The notes under the pieces are model-generated. The model was not told where the DNA came from. It did not search any database and was given only the letters and a program-made list of their open reading frames with translations. Positions 1 through 27,329 of a DNA stretch of 64,000 bases are shown here, one piece after another. The translations under genes were made by a program, and so were the position numbers. Position 1 is the stretch's first letter; each line of letters starts with the position of its first letter. The DNA comes from Pseudomonadota bacterium (GTDB taxonomy: Bacteria; Pseudomonadota; Gammaproteobacteria; Steroidobacterales; Woeseiaceae), in NCBI GenBank assembly GCA_022563255.1, contig JADFNS010000003.1, positions 1-64,000 of the forward strand. The letters are read 5' to 3'.

Positions 1-968
<968 letters not shown>

Positions 969-20541: not shown

Positions 20542-20655
20542 TTTAACAAATCCAAAGCAAATTCCGGTACTCAGGCCCGACTTTTTTCTATTGGACATAA
20601 TAAGACGACTTTTCACGCGCCGTCCGTCCAGCAGCGGAGAATCGCTGCCTAAAAG

Positions 20656-20672
20656 TGTCGAATTTCTTTACA
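20656..20672 (+). promoter_or_regulatory. Possible enhancer-binding site upstream of the sigma-54 promoter
   Basis: TGTCGAATTTCTTTACA is an imperfect dyad (TGTCGA / TGTAAA on opposite strands, 5-bp spacer). It lies 77 bp upstream of the -24 box, a usual distance for a bacterial enhancer-binding protein. I associate such TGT-N-ACA sites with PrsR-type regulators of PEP-CTERM genes; this is an inference. Confidence 0.35.
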
Positions 20673-20748
20673 AAATACTGACTATCGTGAACTGTCCCCC
20701 GGTCGGGTGAACGCTAATCCGTTGAATTCGCGTCTCCGCCGACGACGT

Positions 20749-20764
20749 TGGCACAGCTCTTGCT
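20749..20764 (+). promoter_or_regulatory. Sigma-54 (RpoN) promoter
   Basis: TGGCACAGCTCTTGCT matches the RpoN consensus TGGCAC-N5-TTGCW at every specified position, with GG (20750-20751) and GC (20762-20763) separated by exactly 10 bases. Transcription would start near 20775. No protein gene follows before the terminator at 20951. Confidence 0.75.
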
Positions 20765-20774
20765 CCTATTTAAC

Positions 20775-20982
20775 CTGCCCAAGCAAAGCGTAGCTGCGTT
20801 TGATAACGAAAACGGTCAGAAACAGGATTTAGACGCCAGAAGAACAATAACTATAAAAACAATAAGATCCAGATCCAATAACAATAAGAAAACCACTGTC
20901 ACCGGTTATCGAAAATGCAGTTACCTCTCTTTTGAAAAAAAGAGAAATCCAGCCCCACCGTTAACACCGTGGGGCTTTTTTT
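20775..20982 (+). ncRNA. Candidate sigma-54-dependent small RNA (about 208 nt)
   Basis: The interval between the predicted sigma-54 start and a strong intrinsic terminator contains no open frame longer than a few codons with a start site. It has a purine-rich, AACAATAA-repeated middle and a CTCTTTT...AAAAGAG hairpin (about 20927-20945) before the terminator. It may be an sRNA, an attenuated leader for the methyltransferase operon 85 bp further on, or the untranslated leader and terminator of a gene whose body was deleted. Confidence 0.4.
20951..20982 (+). terminator. Rho-independent terminator
   Basis: AGCCCCAC (20951-20958) pairs with GTGGGGCT (20969-20976) around a 10-nt loop, followed by seven T (20976-20982). 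It lies 176 bp after the sigma-54 start and 85 bp before the next gene. Confidence 0.85.
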
Positions 20983-21067
20983 GCCCGCGAACGCGACGGC
21001 GACGGCCTGCCGCACTTTGCCCTTTCCTGCCTGTCCGAATAGGATCAGGAAACCAGGGAGAAACATC

Positions 21068-21898
21068 ATGAGCAAGCCGACAAGAATCAGCGGGCTGACT
21101 GCGGTCCTCGCTTGTACTCTGATAGCCGCGTGCGACCAGCAGTCTGCTGAGCCACCGGCCACTGAACCGGAAGCCGTTGCAATTACTGCGCCTGCCAACG
21201 ACGCAAGCGGAGCATCGATTTACGCCGCCGCCGTCGCCGATACGGCGAGACCGGATGCCGACACGGAAAGGGACGTACAACGCAAGCCAGGCGCAGTGCT
21301 GGAGTTTTTTGGCATACAGCCCGGCATGATCGTGCTCGATATGTTTACTGGCAGCGGCTATTACGCCGAGATCGTCGCCAACATCGTCGGCCTCGAAGGC
21401 AGGGTCGTCGCACACTCGAACCAGGCATATCTCAATTTTGTCGGCGACGCCTTCGAGGAGCGTTTTAGCGGTCGCCTGACGAACGTCGAGGTGCTCATGG
21501 CAGAGAACAACGAACTGTCTCTGGAAGCCAATACCTTCGACGCCATTTTGCTGGTGTTGAGTTTTCACGATCTGTATCACGCTGATCCCGAGCACGGCTG
21601 GGAACGCATTGACGGCGCGGTATTTTTTGCGGAACTCAGGCAGTCGCTGAAGGCTGGCGGCATCGTCGGCATTGTGGATCACTATGCACAGGCCGGTTCA
21701 CCAAGTGAAACCGGTGACACGATACACCGCATCGATCCCGCCATCGTAATCGCGGATATGCAAGCAGCCGGGTTTACTCTGGCGGCACAAAGCGACCTGC
21801 TGCGAAACCCGAACGACGACCTCAGCAGAACAGTCTTCGCGCCTGAGTTGCGCGGCAAAACCGATCGTTTCGTGATGCGTTTTCAGAAAACTGAATAA
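21068..21898 (+). CDS. Lipoprotein with class I SAM-methyltransferase domain
   Basis: 276 residues from ATG 21068, supported by GGGAGAAAC upstream. The N-terminus is a lipoprotein signal (SGLTAVLACTLIAAC, lipobox LIAAC, Cys near residue 19), then a Pro/Ala/Glu linker. From about residue 75 it has a Rossmann methyltransferase fold: VLEFFGIQPGMIVLDMFTGSGYYAEI is motif I with GSG, LEGRVVAHSNQ follows, and FDAILLVLSFHDLYH is the motif IV region. Related exported methyltransferase-like proteins occur in gammaproteobacteria, but SAM is not known to be present outside the cytoplasm, so activity there is an open question. Its stop overlaps the next ATG (TAATG), and two more envelope genes follow. Confidence 0.85.
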   Translation: MSKPTRISGLTAVLACTLIAACDQQSAEPPATEPEAVAITAPANDASGASIYAAAVADTARPDADTERDVQRKPGAVLEFFGIQPGMIVLDMFTGSGYYAEIVANIVGLEGRVVAHSNQAYLNFVGDAFEERFSGRLTNVEVLMAENNELSLEANTFDAILLVLSFHDLYHADPEHGWERIDGAVFFAELRQSLKAGGIVGIVDHYAQAGSPSETGDTIHRIDPAIVIADMQAAGFTLAAQSDLLRNPNDDLSRTVFAPELRGKTDRFVMRFQKTE

Positions 21899-24242: not shown

Positions 24243-25037
24243 ATGCGTGATAACGAACGAAAATTTTTCTCCAGCGAGGATCTAACTGTCAGCGTCGCCG
24301 GACGCATGCTGGTCGATGCGTTGACCATGGAAGTCGAACGTGGCGAGCTGATCGCCGTGCTTGGACAAAACGGTTCCGGCAAAACCCTGACGCTGCACAC
24401 GCTCGCCGGCCTGCGGCCAGCGGAAAAAGGCGTCACGCGACTGCAGGGAGTGGATGTGGCCAACGGCAACAGACTCGAACTCGCGAAGCATCTTGCTCTA
24501 CTGCCACAGCACGTCGATGACATATTTCCGGCGACGGTGCTCGATACGGCGCTGGTGGGCCGGCATCCGCATATCGGTCGCCTGGACTGGGAATCGCAGC
24601 AAGACATCGAGGTCGCGAAAACCGCCCTGGCATCCGTTGATCTCCAGGAGCTCGCACAACGCGATGTGCTTACGTTGTCAGGCGGCGAACGCAGACGCCT
24701 CGCAATCGCGCAAATCCTCACGCAAACACCCGACTTGTATCTGCTCGACGAGCCCACCAATCACCTCGATCCGCAGCATCAGCTGGATGCCCTGCGGCTG
24801 TTCCGGGAGAAAGCCGACGACGGTGCGGCCGTGATCGCAAGTCTGCACGACGTCAATCTGGCCGTGCGCTTCGCTGACCGCTGCCTGCTGCTTTACGGCG
24901 ACGGGCGCTGGGACATGGGTGCAACGCGAGACATTCTCGACTCCGAGCGCTTGAGCCGACTCTACGCTACGCCGATGGAGGCCATCGACTGGCGGGGACG
25001 CCAGTTATTCATCGCGTCAGGTGACGCAGCCCTTTAG
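24243..25037 (+). CDS. btuD: Vitamin B12-type ABC transporter ATPase
   Basis: ATPase subunit expected to drive the BtuC-type permease. It has a Walker A GQNGSGKT (near residue 42), the Q-loop region LLPQHVDD, the ABC signature LSGGERRRL (near 145), Walker B LYLLDEP with the D-loop segment TNHLDPQHQ, and the switch His in SLHDVNLA. It has 264 residues. Family members also serve heme or siderophores. It is separated from btuC by 10.7 kb, while adenosyltransferase and BtuF genes are within 2.3 kb. Its 3' end overlaps the convergent hisN by 21 bp. Confidence 0.88.
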   Translation: MRDNERKFFSSEDLTVSVAGRMLVDALTMEVERGELIAVLGQNGSGKTLTLHTLAGLRPAEKGVTRLQGVDVANGNRLELAKHLALLPQHVDDIFPATVLDTALVGRHPHIGRLDWESQQDIEVAKTALASVDLQELAQRDVLTLSGGERRRLAIAQILTQTPDLYLLDEPTNHLDPQHQLDALRLFREKADDGAAVIASLHDVNLAVRFADRCLLLYGDGRWDMGATRDILDSERLSRLYATPMEAIDWRGRQLFIASGDAAL

Positions 25038-25811
25038 CTGGCGCAGGTATGTTCGATGCAAGGACGGGTTCGCCGCCAGCACCGAGCGAATTTTCAGATC
25101 CGGCTGCTCGCCGTTGAGGTTTGTAAATACGCCGCCTGCCTCAGTCACGATCACCGACAACGCCGCGATGTCCAGAATATTCACGTCCGACTCAATGACC
25201 GCCTCGATTTTTCCCGCAGCCAGCAAATGGTAATGATAAAAATCGCCGTAACCACGAATGCGGTCAGCACGTTCGACAATCTTGCCCAGCGACGACCAGC
25301 CGTCGCTGGCGGCCAGCGACTTCAGATTGCCGGTGGAGACGGCGGCCCGGTCCGGGTCGTCAATCCGACTGATTGCCAGCGGCTTGCCGTTTAACCAGGC
25401 GCCCTGTCCTTTTTCCGCCCAGGCGAGCTCGTCCATCATCGCGCCGCTGGACACGCCGAGAATTAATTCACCGCCGTGCATGAGCGCAATTTGTGTTGAG
25501 AAAAACGGGTACTGGCGAACAAACGCCTTGGTGCCGTCTATCGGATCGACCAACCAGAGATATTCGGCATCTTCCTGCGTTCGGACGGTCTCCTCGCCGT
25601 AGAAACCGTGCTCGGGATAGGCGCCAAGAATAACATCGCGTATCGCCTGTTCACACTCGACGTCCGCTTGCGTAACAGGCGTCATGTCAGCCTTGGTCGT
25701 TACGGTGAAATTGCCGGCGTAATAATCGCGGCTGATTTTGGCCGCTTTATCAGCCGCCGCCAGCGCTACCTTAAGGTAGCCCGACGCGTTTTCTGCGCTG
25801 AAACTTTCCAC
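25017..25811 (-). CDS. hisN: Inositol-monophosphatase-family phosphatase, probably histidinol-phosphatase
   Basis: A Mg-dependent phosphatase of 264 residues. The metal-binding motifs are GEETV (near 73), WLVDPIDGTKAFVR (near 90), and ILDIAALSVIVTEAGGVF near the C-terminus. The sequence DPIDGTKAF and the DMTPVTQADVECEQAIR start resemble HisN-type histidinol-phosphatases rather than SuhB; a broader sugar- or inositol-phosphatase role is possible. It stands alone, convergent with btuD, away from other his genes. Confidence 0.85.
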   Translation of the reverse strand: MESFSAENASGYLKVALAAADKAAKISRDYYAGNFTVTTKADMTPVTQADVECEQAIRDVILGAYPEHGFYGEETVRTQEDAEYLWLVDPIDGTKAFVRQYPFFSTQIALMHGGELILGVSSGAMMDELAWAEKGQGAWLNGKPLAISRIDDPDRAAVSTGNLKSLAASDGWSSLGKIVERADRIRGYGDFYHYHLLAAGKIEAVIESDVNILDIAALSVIVTEAGGVFTNLNGEQPDLKIRSVLAANPSLHRTYLRQLKGCVT

Positions 25812-25923
25812 CGTACTGAGAGATCCTGCAGTTGCTGACTGACGGCATCACTATGGCCGCAAGCTTCGGGAGAAACAAGCACGGTTTCTTGACAGCCCGG
25901 ACCCGCCTACCTATCGTTTCAGC

Positions 25924-26472
25924 ATGGGAAATCGGCTGAGCAAAATTTACACACGCACCGGCGATGACGGCACCACAGGTCTCGGCGACGGTAGTCGCGT
26001 CGCCAAAGATTCCGTCCGGGTCGAGGCTTTTGGCACCGTCGACGAGGCGAACAGCGCAATCGGCGCCGTTCTGGCGGCAGACACCGTGCCAGAAGACATT
26101 CGTTTGTGCCTGGCCGAGGTGCAGCACGACCTCTTTGAACTCGGTGGGGAGCTGTGTATCCCTGGCCACAGCGCGATAACTCAGGCGTTCGTTGACCGAC
26201 TTGAGGCCGACCTCGACGGCTTCAACGCAGACCTTCCGATGCTCAAGGAGTTCATCCTGCCGGGAGGCGGGCAGGCCGCCGCCGCATGCCATCTGGCACG
26301 CACTATCGTGCGACGGGCGGAACGAAGAGTCATCACGCTAGCGGGCGTCGAGGATGTCCGGTCCGAGGTTGTCAAATACCTGAATCGCCTGTCCGACCTG
26401 CTGTTCGTAATCGCCCGCGTCCTGGCCCGCAAGGAATCCGGCCAGGAAGTCTTGTGGAACCGCGACCGATAG
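25924..26472 (+). CDS. pduO: Cob(I)alamin adenosyltransferase, PduO type
   Basis: Transfers the adenosyl group of ATP to cob(I)alamin to make coenzyme B12. The 182-residue, all-helical protein has the ATP-binding N-terminus KIYTRTGDDGTTGLGDGSRV (residues 7-26), the RVEAFGTVDEANSAIG segment, and the C-terminal CHLARTIVRRAERRV and YLNRLSDLLFVIAR motifs. It is convergent with btuF, 5 bp between stops. Together with the btu genes this supports salvage of imported corrinoid rather than de novo synthesis. Confidence 0.96.
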   Translation: MGNRLSKIYTRTGDDGTTGLGDGSRVAKDSVRVEAFGTVDEANSAIGAVLAADTVPEDIRLCLAEVQHDLFELGGELCIPGHSAITQAFVDRLEADLDGFNADLPMLKEFILPGGGQAAAACHLARTIVRRAERRVITLAGVEDVRSEVVKYLNRLSDLLFVIARVLARKESGQEVLWNRDR

Positions 26473-26477
26473 CGTCT

Positions 26478-27329
26478 CTACCCGCGATTCACTCGCGCCT
26501 GTTGCAGCGCCGTACACAACGCTTCTCCGGCGATGATCAACCGCGCCGTCGCCCGCCCGATCTCATCGGCCGGCAACAGGAACTGATTCCCAAAACGATT
26601 GGCCGCAATCTCCGGCCAGCGCTCCCACTCATCGAACGCGTTGTCGCCGGCGTCGGTGCTCGCCAACATGACCTCCGGATTGCGATCGACAACGGCTTCA
26701 ACGTCAACGGTCGGCGCGAGATCGTTTAGGTCATTGAATATATTTTCACCGCCGCATATCGAAATCAGCTTACTGACATAGTGCTCTTTGTTGACCGTGA
26801 AAAGCGGTCGCGCGGAAACCTGGTAAAAGACGCGTATCGGGTCCAGGCCCGCAAAGCGCTCCTGCAGAGACCACAGACCGGCACGAAATTCGGCGGCGGC
26901 GCGCGCCGCCTCGTCGGTACGCCCCGTCAACGCACCGAGGCGCAACATTGCGTCGGCGATGTCATCGAGACCGCGCGTGCGAATCGACGCAACGCGGTAA
27001 CCGGTCGCCCGCAACTGTTCAATTGTGCGCGCGGGTGTGCCGCTCTCCCAGACCAATAGCAAATCCGGATTCACCAGCGCGAGCCGTTCCTGATCGACAC
27101 TAAAGGCGTCGCCGACAACCGGCAGATCAAGCGCCTCCTGCGGATAATCCGACCAGGCGCTGACACCCACGAGCTGGTCGCCCGCCCCGATCGTGTACAT
27201 GAGTTCAGTTAGATTTGGCGCGAGAGAAACAATGCGCGGCGCGTCGTTGGATACAGGCGTTGGGTCTTGCGCTTCGGTACAGGCGGCAACGCAGGCAAGT
27301 ACCGCCAGCATCGCCAACGCGGCTTTCAC
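26478..27329 (-). CDS. btuF: Cobalamin-binding lipoprotein of the BtuF family
   Basis: Periplasmic substrate-binding component for vitamin B12 import. The 283 residues begin with a lipoprotein signal (LAMLAVLACVAAC, lipobox CVAAC), so it would be membrane-tethered unlike soluble E. coli BtuF. The class III binding-protein fold is shown by APRIVSLAPNLTELMYTIGAG (near 30), GVSAWSDYPQEA, and ICGGENIFNDL. The sequence NPDLLLVWESGTP is typical of BtuF. Its start overlaps ampE's end by 4 bp (27326-27329), so it is transcribed after ampDE. Confidence 0.93.
   Translation of the reverse strand: MKAALAMLAVLACVAACTEAQDPTPVSNDAPRIVSLAPNLTELMYTIGAGDQLVGVSAWSDYPQEALDLPVVGDAFSVDQERLALVNPDLLLVWESGTPARTIEQLRATGYRVASIRTRGLDDIADAMLRLGALTGRTDEAARAAAEFRAGLWSLQERFAGLDPIRVFYQVSARPLFTVNKEHYVSKLISICGGENIFNDLNDLAPTVDVEAVVDRNPEVMLASTDAGDNAFDEWERWPEIAANRFGNQFLLPADEIGRATARLIIAGEALCTALQQARVNRG

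Follow-up and report, generated by a model that had tools for sequence, protein, structure and literature searches.

A putative PrsR- and sigma-54-driven small RNA of Woeseiaceae with features of a CrcZ-like Hfq decoy

Introduction

CrcZ and CrcY are RpoN- and CbrB-dependent RNAs that contain several AAnAAnAA motifs and sequester Hfq/Crc (PMC6292655, PMC5501646). The AAnAAnAA sequence is the CA motif, which is bound by Hfq together with Crc in Pseudomonas and Azotobacter (PMC5429807), and the distal face of Hfq takes six A-R-N triplets (PMC6422490). In Azotobacter, CrcZ and CrcY harbour six and five AAnAAnAA motifs, respectively, which are mostly located in loops (PMC5429807, PMC6292655, PMC6422490, PMC5501646). 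CrcZ of P. aeruginosa has a length of 426 nt (PMC6422490), and six A-rich stretches have been described for CrcZ (PMC5501646).

For PEP-CTERM genes, Haft 2006 describes a motif 1 of 17 nt ending in TTTACA, followed by a spacer (mean 62.8 nt, range 32-92 nt) and a 17-nt -24/-12 sigma-54 motif. Motif 1 was assigned to PrsR, and a few sites were located upstream of other genes (Haft 2006). An RpoN-dependent PEP-CTERM gene has the -24/-12 elements TGGCAC and CTGCTT (PMC9850573), and DVUA0057, a PEP-CTERM regulator, was reported to bind five targets predicted to belong to the PEP-CTERM system as well as several other sites (PMC3333781).

The locus described here lies in a window of 64,000 nucleotides, the window being the whole stretch of DNA that was analysed. 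Its host belongs to the Woeseiaceae, which are seabed bacteria. Among the matches listed from the open-licence PMC literature, no small RNA under PrsR or in Woeseia was described in a title or at the start of an abstract; PEP-CTERM and Hfq co-occur in two papers of this literature, and PEP-CTERM is named once in each.

Results

A PrsR-type box, a sigma-54 promoter and an intrinsic terminator

The locus comprises the following features:

20656-20672, + strand: PrsR box, a putative upstream activator site, TGTCGAATTTCTTTACA (17 nt with TTTACA at its end)
20713-20728, + strand: IHF-like block GCTAATCCGTTGAATT, assigned by sequence likeness, between activator site and promoter
20748-20764, + strand: sigma-54 promoter TTGGCACAGCTCTTGCT, -24 GG at 20750-51 and -12 GC at 20762-63
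20775-20982, + strand: predicted small RNA of ~208 nt, its start inferred from the -12 GC; supported by conservation, fold and covariation
20951-20982, + strand: intrinsic terminator with an 8-bp stem, a 10-nt loop and T7; 99.4% of cells paired, 3 of 7 counted pairs with double changes
21068-21898, + strand (that of the RNA): next gene, methyltransferase-like, starting 85 bp after the terminator

The promoter letters at 20748-20764 are TTGGCAC-AGCTC-TTGCT with GG, N10, GC spacing, in agreement with the exact sigma-54 consensus of the original prediction. A TGT..ACA dyad had also been placed 77 bp upstream; the site is present, but the dyad is imperfect, and 75 bp separate its end from the 17-nt promoter motif. 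As judged from the description in Haft 2006, TGTCGAATTTCTTTACA fits motif 1, and the 75-nt spacer (20672 to 20748) lies within the published range. The expected intrinsic terminator downstream of the predicted start was found as well, with a GC-rich stem (AGCCCCAC at 20951-20958 and GTGGGGCT at 20969-20976) followed by seven T. It was missing from the output of a simple terminator scan, probably because its loop of 10 nt exceeds the loop limit of 8. No credible open reading frame had been noted in the region originally; a TTG-started frame of 107 codons does overlap it, but this frame begins inside the promoter.

Both TGTCGAATTTCTTTACA and TTGGCACAGCTCTTGCT have one exact match in the window. 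When two mismatches were allowed, each motif had two window matches, versus 0.93 and 2.95, respectively, expected by chance; as this is no clear excess, the motifs alone are little proof. In the host genome (2.45 Mb, 84% complete), the single exact match of TGTCGNNNNNNTTTACA is the upstream site.

The block is conserved in Woeseiaceae

The block 20640-20990 was matched by blastn in 52 of the 61 genus genomes, that of the host included, with 69-86% identity in the relatives. The remaining nine genomes gave no blastn match (G001, G003, G004, G005, G008, G011, G026, G031 and G051). Most matches start near the upstream site or at the promoter and stop at the terminator. In the 52 sequences compared (the window and 51 loci), TGGCA[C/T]-N5-TTGC is kept throughout. 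Of its 11 fixed letters, the upstream site retains 10 or more in 49 sequences (all 11 in 25), and in 50 sequences it is separated from TGGCA by 74-76 nt; L072, a second contig piece of G029 without an anchor, was excluded from this promoter and box count. A TAA-N3-5-[TC]TGA block within 60 nt upstream of the promoter occurs in 41/52 sequences and is missing in 11. This conservation across relatives rules out a chance origin of the motifs. Conservation in relatives had been named as a test of the original prediction, and block, promoter and terminator are indeed kept in these 52/61 genomes.

A scan of named genomes with a 20-nt word gave at least 81 stretches, 77 of them with the promoter at most 110 nt upstream. 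Among the matches listed, 72 of these 77 also have a PrsR-type box, and by title they belong to Woeseiaceae, Woeseia, unplaced (Gamma)proteobacteria and, in two cases, Chromatiales. Four word matches without the promoter (Sporosarcina twice, Izemoplasmatales and Nitrospira) were taken as chance. With model R1, the RNA was also found in 6/12 genomes from other genera of the same family (160-193 bits). A class-wide R1 search gave matches in 11/369 genomes, nine of them outside the genus; only the match in G074 had box and promoter, and the other eight, which have no box, were taken as chance.

The original prediction had left room for a secreted-protein gene whose body is lost. This is contradicted by the relatives, which have the same short promoter-to-terminator block without a gene, and no intact gene between promoter and terminator was seen in the relatives' loci that were read. 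In favour of the remnant of a PEP-CTERM gene, the locus shares the box and promoter type with PEP-CTERM genes, and some of these also have the box-to-promoter distance of the RNA; however, a block that is kept without a gene in 52/61 genomes and has covarying helices inside makes such a remnant hardly credible.

The RNA has a conserved and covarying structure

Alignment A1 consists of 47 of the 52 loci and the window (48 sequences); L047, L070, L071, L072 and L073, being short, gapped or partial, were left out. The following elements were assigned in addition to the terminator:

20790-20797 (5' arm) and 20917-20924 (3' arm), + strand: helix P1; 99.7% of cells paired, 3 of 8 pairs with double changes
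20802-20807 (5' arm) and 20905-20910 (3' arm), + strand: helix P1b; 87.2% of cells paired, 5 of 6 pairs with double changes
20825-20828 (5' arm, GGAU) and 20873-20876 (3' arm), + strand: helix P2; four invariant core pairs
20926-20945, + strand: small hairpin CTCTCTTTTGAAAAAAAGAG; present in the minimum-energy fold and as a local hairpin in 33/48 single folds

None of 200 shuffles folds as well as the 208-nt RNA (z -5.3). Over the 48 sequences, 95.9% of the cells in P1, P1b, a 3-bp inner helix, P2 and the terminator are paired. Pairing falls to 24-48% when the partners are slid, a comparison that is biased toward the structure since this was partly derived from the same 48 sequences. Double changes were observed at 11 pairs and in 52 cells, versus 6.3 and 13.3 in shuffles, and none of 500 shuffles reached the observed covarying pairs or cells. 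Covariation does not support the P2 core and the inner helix, because the former is invariant and the latter has no double change. RNAalifold, when applied to the same alignment, gave 29 pairs, six of them with double changes. In the 48 single-sequence folds, at least 60% of P1 formed in all 48, at least half of the P1b pairs in 41 and at least half of P2 in 40. A covariance analysis of 20775-20982 in relatives had been suggested with the original prediction, and it revealed covarying helices. Outside the A-rich sequence, near-invariant blocks are found across the 48 sequences, including GCCCAAGCGAAG and AGGATTTAGACGCCAGAAGAA.

At gathering score, the only Rfam match in the window was 16S, with no leader or riboswitch match; a partial 16S rRNA gene lies at window positions 1-968 on the minus strand and runs off the left window end. 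Up to E 10, the RNA region had 11 Rfam matches, none of which comes near its gathering score; several of the top-ranking ones overlie the 3' end and the terminator of the RNA. That the RNA is a cis-acting leader or attenuator might be suggested by the next gene, which in the window lies on the same strand 85 bp past the terminator, and by the terminator at the end of the RNA. Yet the RNA is retained whereas the next gene varies, encoding a methyltransferase-like protein, an amidase, an ABC ATPase, an adenosyltransferase or a conserved protein that matches no Pfam family. As Rfam also shows neither a leader nor a riboswitch here at gathering score, a leader function is very unlikely.

Unpaired A-rich elements carry CA motifs

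Two A-rich elements are located between the helix arms:

20840-20866, + strand: A-rich element 1, AAG AAC AAT AAC TAT AAA AAC AAT AAG; 8 of 9 triplets are A-R-N
20877-20892, + strand: A-rich element 2, AATAACAATAAGAAAA, with the third AAnAAnAA motif

Element 1 contains two non-overlapping AAnAAnAA motifs. A CA motif is present in element 1 in 48/48 sequences and in element 2 in 45/48. The 48 RNAs have on average 3.46 AAnAAnAA motifs, versus 0.58 in dinucleotide shuffles, and the observed count was reached by 0.8% of the shuffles; as a control, 300 segments of 210 nt were taken from the plus strand of the window, and 298 of them had at most one. Inside the CA motifs, the mean unpaired probability is 0.905, versus 0.38 elsewhere in the RNA. 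For an RNA of this composition, the longest uninterrupted series of A-R-N triplets is unremarkable, as 16.5% of shuffles reach its length. Variation in the loop falls on the N of A-A-N, with phase entropies of 8.79 versus 0.73 and 1.49 bits (permutation fraction 0.001); this period-3 test was performed on columns 71-97, which were picked after the alignment had been viewed. An Hfq gene is present in the host genome and in 62 of the 70 genomes searched. The A-rich Hfq-type motifs had been missed in the original prediction and likely provide the mechanism by which the RNA acts. A CsrA sponge was rejected: there are only one to three GGA per type A RNA (the RNA of the window and its close relatives) and 0-2 per type B RNA, a diverged form described below, and one of them is paired in P2.

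Period-3 variation could also reflect codons of a short protein (frame ...TGFRRQKNNNYKNNKIQIQ-stop), since variation occurs at each third position and an ATG, GTG or TTG is found in frame in 14/48 sequences. In the other 34, however, the window included, there is no such start codon in frame, and RRQK is found in no forward frame of seven aligned type B RNAs, which retain the A-A-N motifs. We therefore regard a protein gene as highly improbable.

In the leaders of PEP-CTERM genes behind a PrsR box, one CA motif was found in 5 of 22, with 1.4 expected. CA motifs as a trait of PEP-CTERM leaders were thus judged weak, and as most of these leaders are without CA motifs, such motifs do not characterise the regulon as a whole.

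PrsR is present in the host and co-occurs with the RNA

The host genome encodes RpoN and seven strong sigma-54 activators. One of these is PrsR (TIGR02915; 705.6 bits, cut-off 502.6), and four of the seven score below every NCBIfam activator cut-off. Promoter and dyad had originally been linked to PrsR; the PrsR gene in the host and the fit of the dyad to Haft motif 1 support this. In relatives, the PrsR-type box also precedes PEP-CTERM genes.

The PrsR gene is located at 5587-6912 of contig C1 of the host genome G000 (L306). It is flanked by a TonB receptor gene and, on the opposite side, by a GlrR-like gene (628.7 bits, below the cut-off of 763) with a histidine-kinase gene ahead of it. PrsK, for which a search had been suggested with the original prediction, was not recognised in the 18 kb around the host PrsR, where one kinase-like protein was scanned. 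This protein (L306:1906-3372) had CreC as its best match, below the cut-off, and PrsK was absent among the 25 families listed. An EpsH/exosortase search, suggested likewise, found none in the host genome (84% complete).

PrsR exceeds the cut-off in 47/61 genus genomes, and an exosortase was detected in 16/61. Both PrsR and the RNA occur in 45 of the 61 genomes and neither in seven; two have PrsR alone (G005 and G008) and seven the RNA without PrsR over the cut-off (G022, G024, G034, G037, G043, G050 and G056, of which G022 is 100% complete). G005, which is 98% complete, has PrsR and an exosortase yet no blastn match to the RNA. RNA and PrsR co-occur with a Fisher p of 2.2e-4, uncorrected for kinship or missing sequence, and no association of the RNA with exosortase was observed in the 61 genomes (p 1.0). 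PrsR and the RNA are found without a detectable exosortase in 32 genomes.

A strict search for box and promoter gave 50 matches in 37/71 genus genomes. The small RNA accounts for at least 28 of these 50, as judged by position or sequence, and no other single target is seen as often in this search. The distance from the box start to the -12 GC is 106-108 nt in type A and B loci, whereas 10 of 12 strictly recognised PEP-CTERM rows have 94-96 nt. The two distance clusters, PEP-CTERM genes mostly at 94-96 nt and the RNAs at 106-108 nt, lie about one helical turn apart. Among 20 loci selected for the long distance, 14 encode RNA A or B, five a PEP-CTERM protein (L286, L298, L300, L301 and L303), and the remaining one has a different transcript (L302). 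Since the long class includes PEP-CTERM genes, at least five of them, the distance is not exclusive to the RNA and was rejected as its hallmark.

Other RNAs behind the PrsR box

In family f15, the strict pattern revealed in at least 8 of 39 genomes an RNA that follows the same box and promoter but has diverged in sequence (type B). In type B, the distance from box start to -12 GC is 106-107 nt, and a terminator stands at the end. The eight RNAs, two of which are near-identical, have 3.88 CA motifs each, versus 0.62 in shuffles. Model R1 recognised two of them clearly (39.1 and 30.5 bits) and four weakly (15.7-18.2 bits, E 0.017-0.067), and two were unmatched. Upstream of type B, matches to gamma-glutamyltranspeptidase or amidohydrolase were found in 4/8, and downstream matches to ABC ATPase or cobalamin adenosyltransferase in 7/8. 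The flank matches are partly weak, with 25-41% identity for amidohydrolase and with ABC ATPases being common; the downstream methyltransferase was left out of the neighbour comparison of types A and B. Because their neighbours are partly shared, types A and B are probably orthologous.

Genes for an ABC ATPase, a PduO-type cobalamin adenosyltransferase and a BtuF-like protein are located at window positions 24243-27329, likely a corrinoid uptake/activation cluster. Some of its components recur in the neighbourhood of the type B RNA in another family. In one genome, a cobalamin riboswitch is located near a type B RNA (L294, 345-573, minus strand, 101.5 bits).

Further PrsR-box RNAs were found in other families. 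L282 (f6) has four CA motifs and a terminator and scores 30.3 bits with R1; L271 (f16) has three CA motifs and a terminator and scores 19.1 bits (E 0.011). A different non-coding RNA of ~90 nt, with a PrsR box, a GGCACG-type sigma-54 promoter and a terminator, was found in four genomes of f9 (L275-L278); it has one CA motif in each, which is no significant excess (22% of shuffles reach it). L302 (f5) and L273 (f16) are PrsR-box transcripts with a terminator within ~190 nt and no CA motifs.

Alignment A2 of type B was made without L293, which is near-identical to L294. GANGCCAGAAG is common to type A and 6 of the 7 aligned type B RNAs, and this bears on a further explanation, an Hfq-dependent base-pairing small RNA controlled like Qrr/GlmY. 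Here, the A-A-N loop would only load the distal face of Hfq, and GCCCAAGCGAAG, GACGCCAGAAG or CCUCUUUU would pair with target mRNAs. Such an RNA would be in line with the near-invariant non-A blocks over the 48 sequences and with the sharing of GANGCCAGAAG, and sigma-54-driven regulatory RNAs are known (PMC6075780). On the other hand, CA motifs, box and terminator are the best survivors between families, and three to four CA motifs seem beyond the need of one loading site. We consider base pairing as the sole function rather unlikely, albeit a serious alternative.

Discussion

A regulated small RNA of ~208 nt of the PrsR/sigma-54 kind, one of the two readings offered originally, is supported by conservation, covariation, the host PrsR and the fit to motif 1. 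Sigma-54 promoter, box, structure, unpaired CA motifs and terminator are all kept while much of the other sequence has changed, and for this reason a CrcZ-like sponge is the best reading. We thus favour, with reasonable though limited confidence, a stand-alone small-RNA gene that is driven by PrsR and sigma-54 and would act as a CrcZ-like Hfq decoy. Against the sponge, the near-invariant blocks GCCCAAGCGAAG and AGGATTTAGACGCCAGAAGAA exceed what a sponge needs; since they lie outside the loop, an additional or alternative base-pairing role is possible.

From what is seen at the sequence level, namely promoter, box, conservation, structure, motifs and the genes for PrsR, RpoN and Hfq, the following model can be proposed. 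A PrsR-type response regulator (TIGR02915), of the kind that controls surface proteins linked to exopolysaccharide, would bind 20656-20672, perhaps assisted by DNA bending at 20713-20728, and activate sigma-54 RNA polymerase at 20748-20764. Transcription would yield an RNA of ~208 nt ending at 20982. When PrsR is active, this RNA would most likely sequester Hfq, either alone or together with a Crc-like partner, and A-rich mRNAs would presumably be freed from Hfq-mediated repression. The PrsR/surface programme would in this way be coupled to global post-transcriptional control.

More tentatively, and with somewhat less than even confidence, we propose that RNAs which sponge Hfq through CA motifs form an old and spreading class under the control of PrsR, a counterpart to CbrB-CrcZ but independent of it. 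Within Woeseiaceae, the core target of PrsR would be the RNA rather than the PEP-CTERM genes, and the RNA would outlive the exosortase system; unrelated-looking RNAs with the same box and motifs might do the same job in several families of the order. If true, sigma-54-driven Hfq sponging would extend beyond Pseudomonas and its kin and have a second home under a different sensor system. PrsR would gain a role beyond PEP-CTERM genes, which would help to explain its persistence in genomes without a detectable exosortase. The idea would be testable in a cultured species.

Among known systems, Qrr (LuxO) and GlmY (GlrR/QseF) are likewise sigma-54-dependent small RNAs under an NtrC-type regulator, and PrsR here adjoins a GlrR-like gene. 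The RNA had no Qrr or GlmY match in Rfam, and their core sequence presumably differs from that of the RNA. With the PEP-CTERM promoters of Haft 2006, the locus shares a 17-nt box ending in TTTACA, a sigma-54 promoter and a spacer in the published range. Unlike these, it drives a non-coding RNA, its spacer is 75 nt versus a published mean of 62.8, and in its host, no exosortase was detected and PrsK was not recognised next to PrsR. As in the case of Dv_sRNA2 of Desulfovibrio vulgaris, described in PMC3333781 as a target of the response regulator DVU0679, a small RNA is the predicted target of a response regulator, although the regulator differs.

In contrast to CrcZ, the activator site is of the PrsR type, and ~208 nt hold three to four motifs. 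CrcZ was not among the 11 Rfam matches of the RNA region up to E 10, although Rfam presumably contains a CrcZ family, and the CbrB half-sites TGTTAC/GTAACA are absent from 20600-20760. Because of the PrsR-type activator site and the lack of an Rfam match, we do not class the RNA as CrcZ. With CrcZ, CrcY and CrcX of Pseudomonas and Azotobacter, it shares a sigma-54 promoter that, as judged here from sequence, is controlled by a two-component regulator of the NtrC type, the presence of several AAnAAnAA motifs in loops that are unpaired and, as predicted here, the function of an Hfq sponge.
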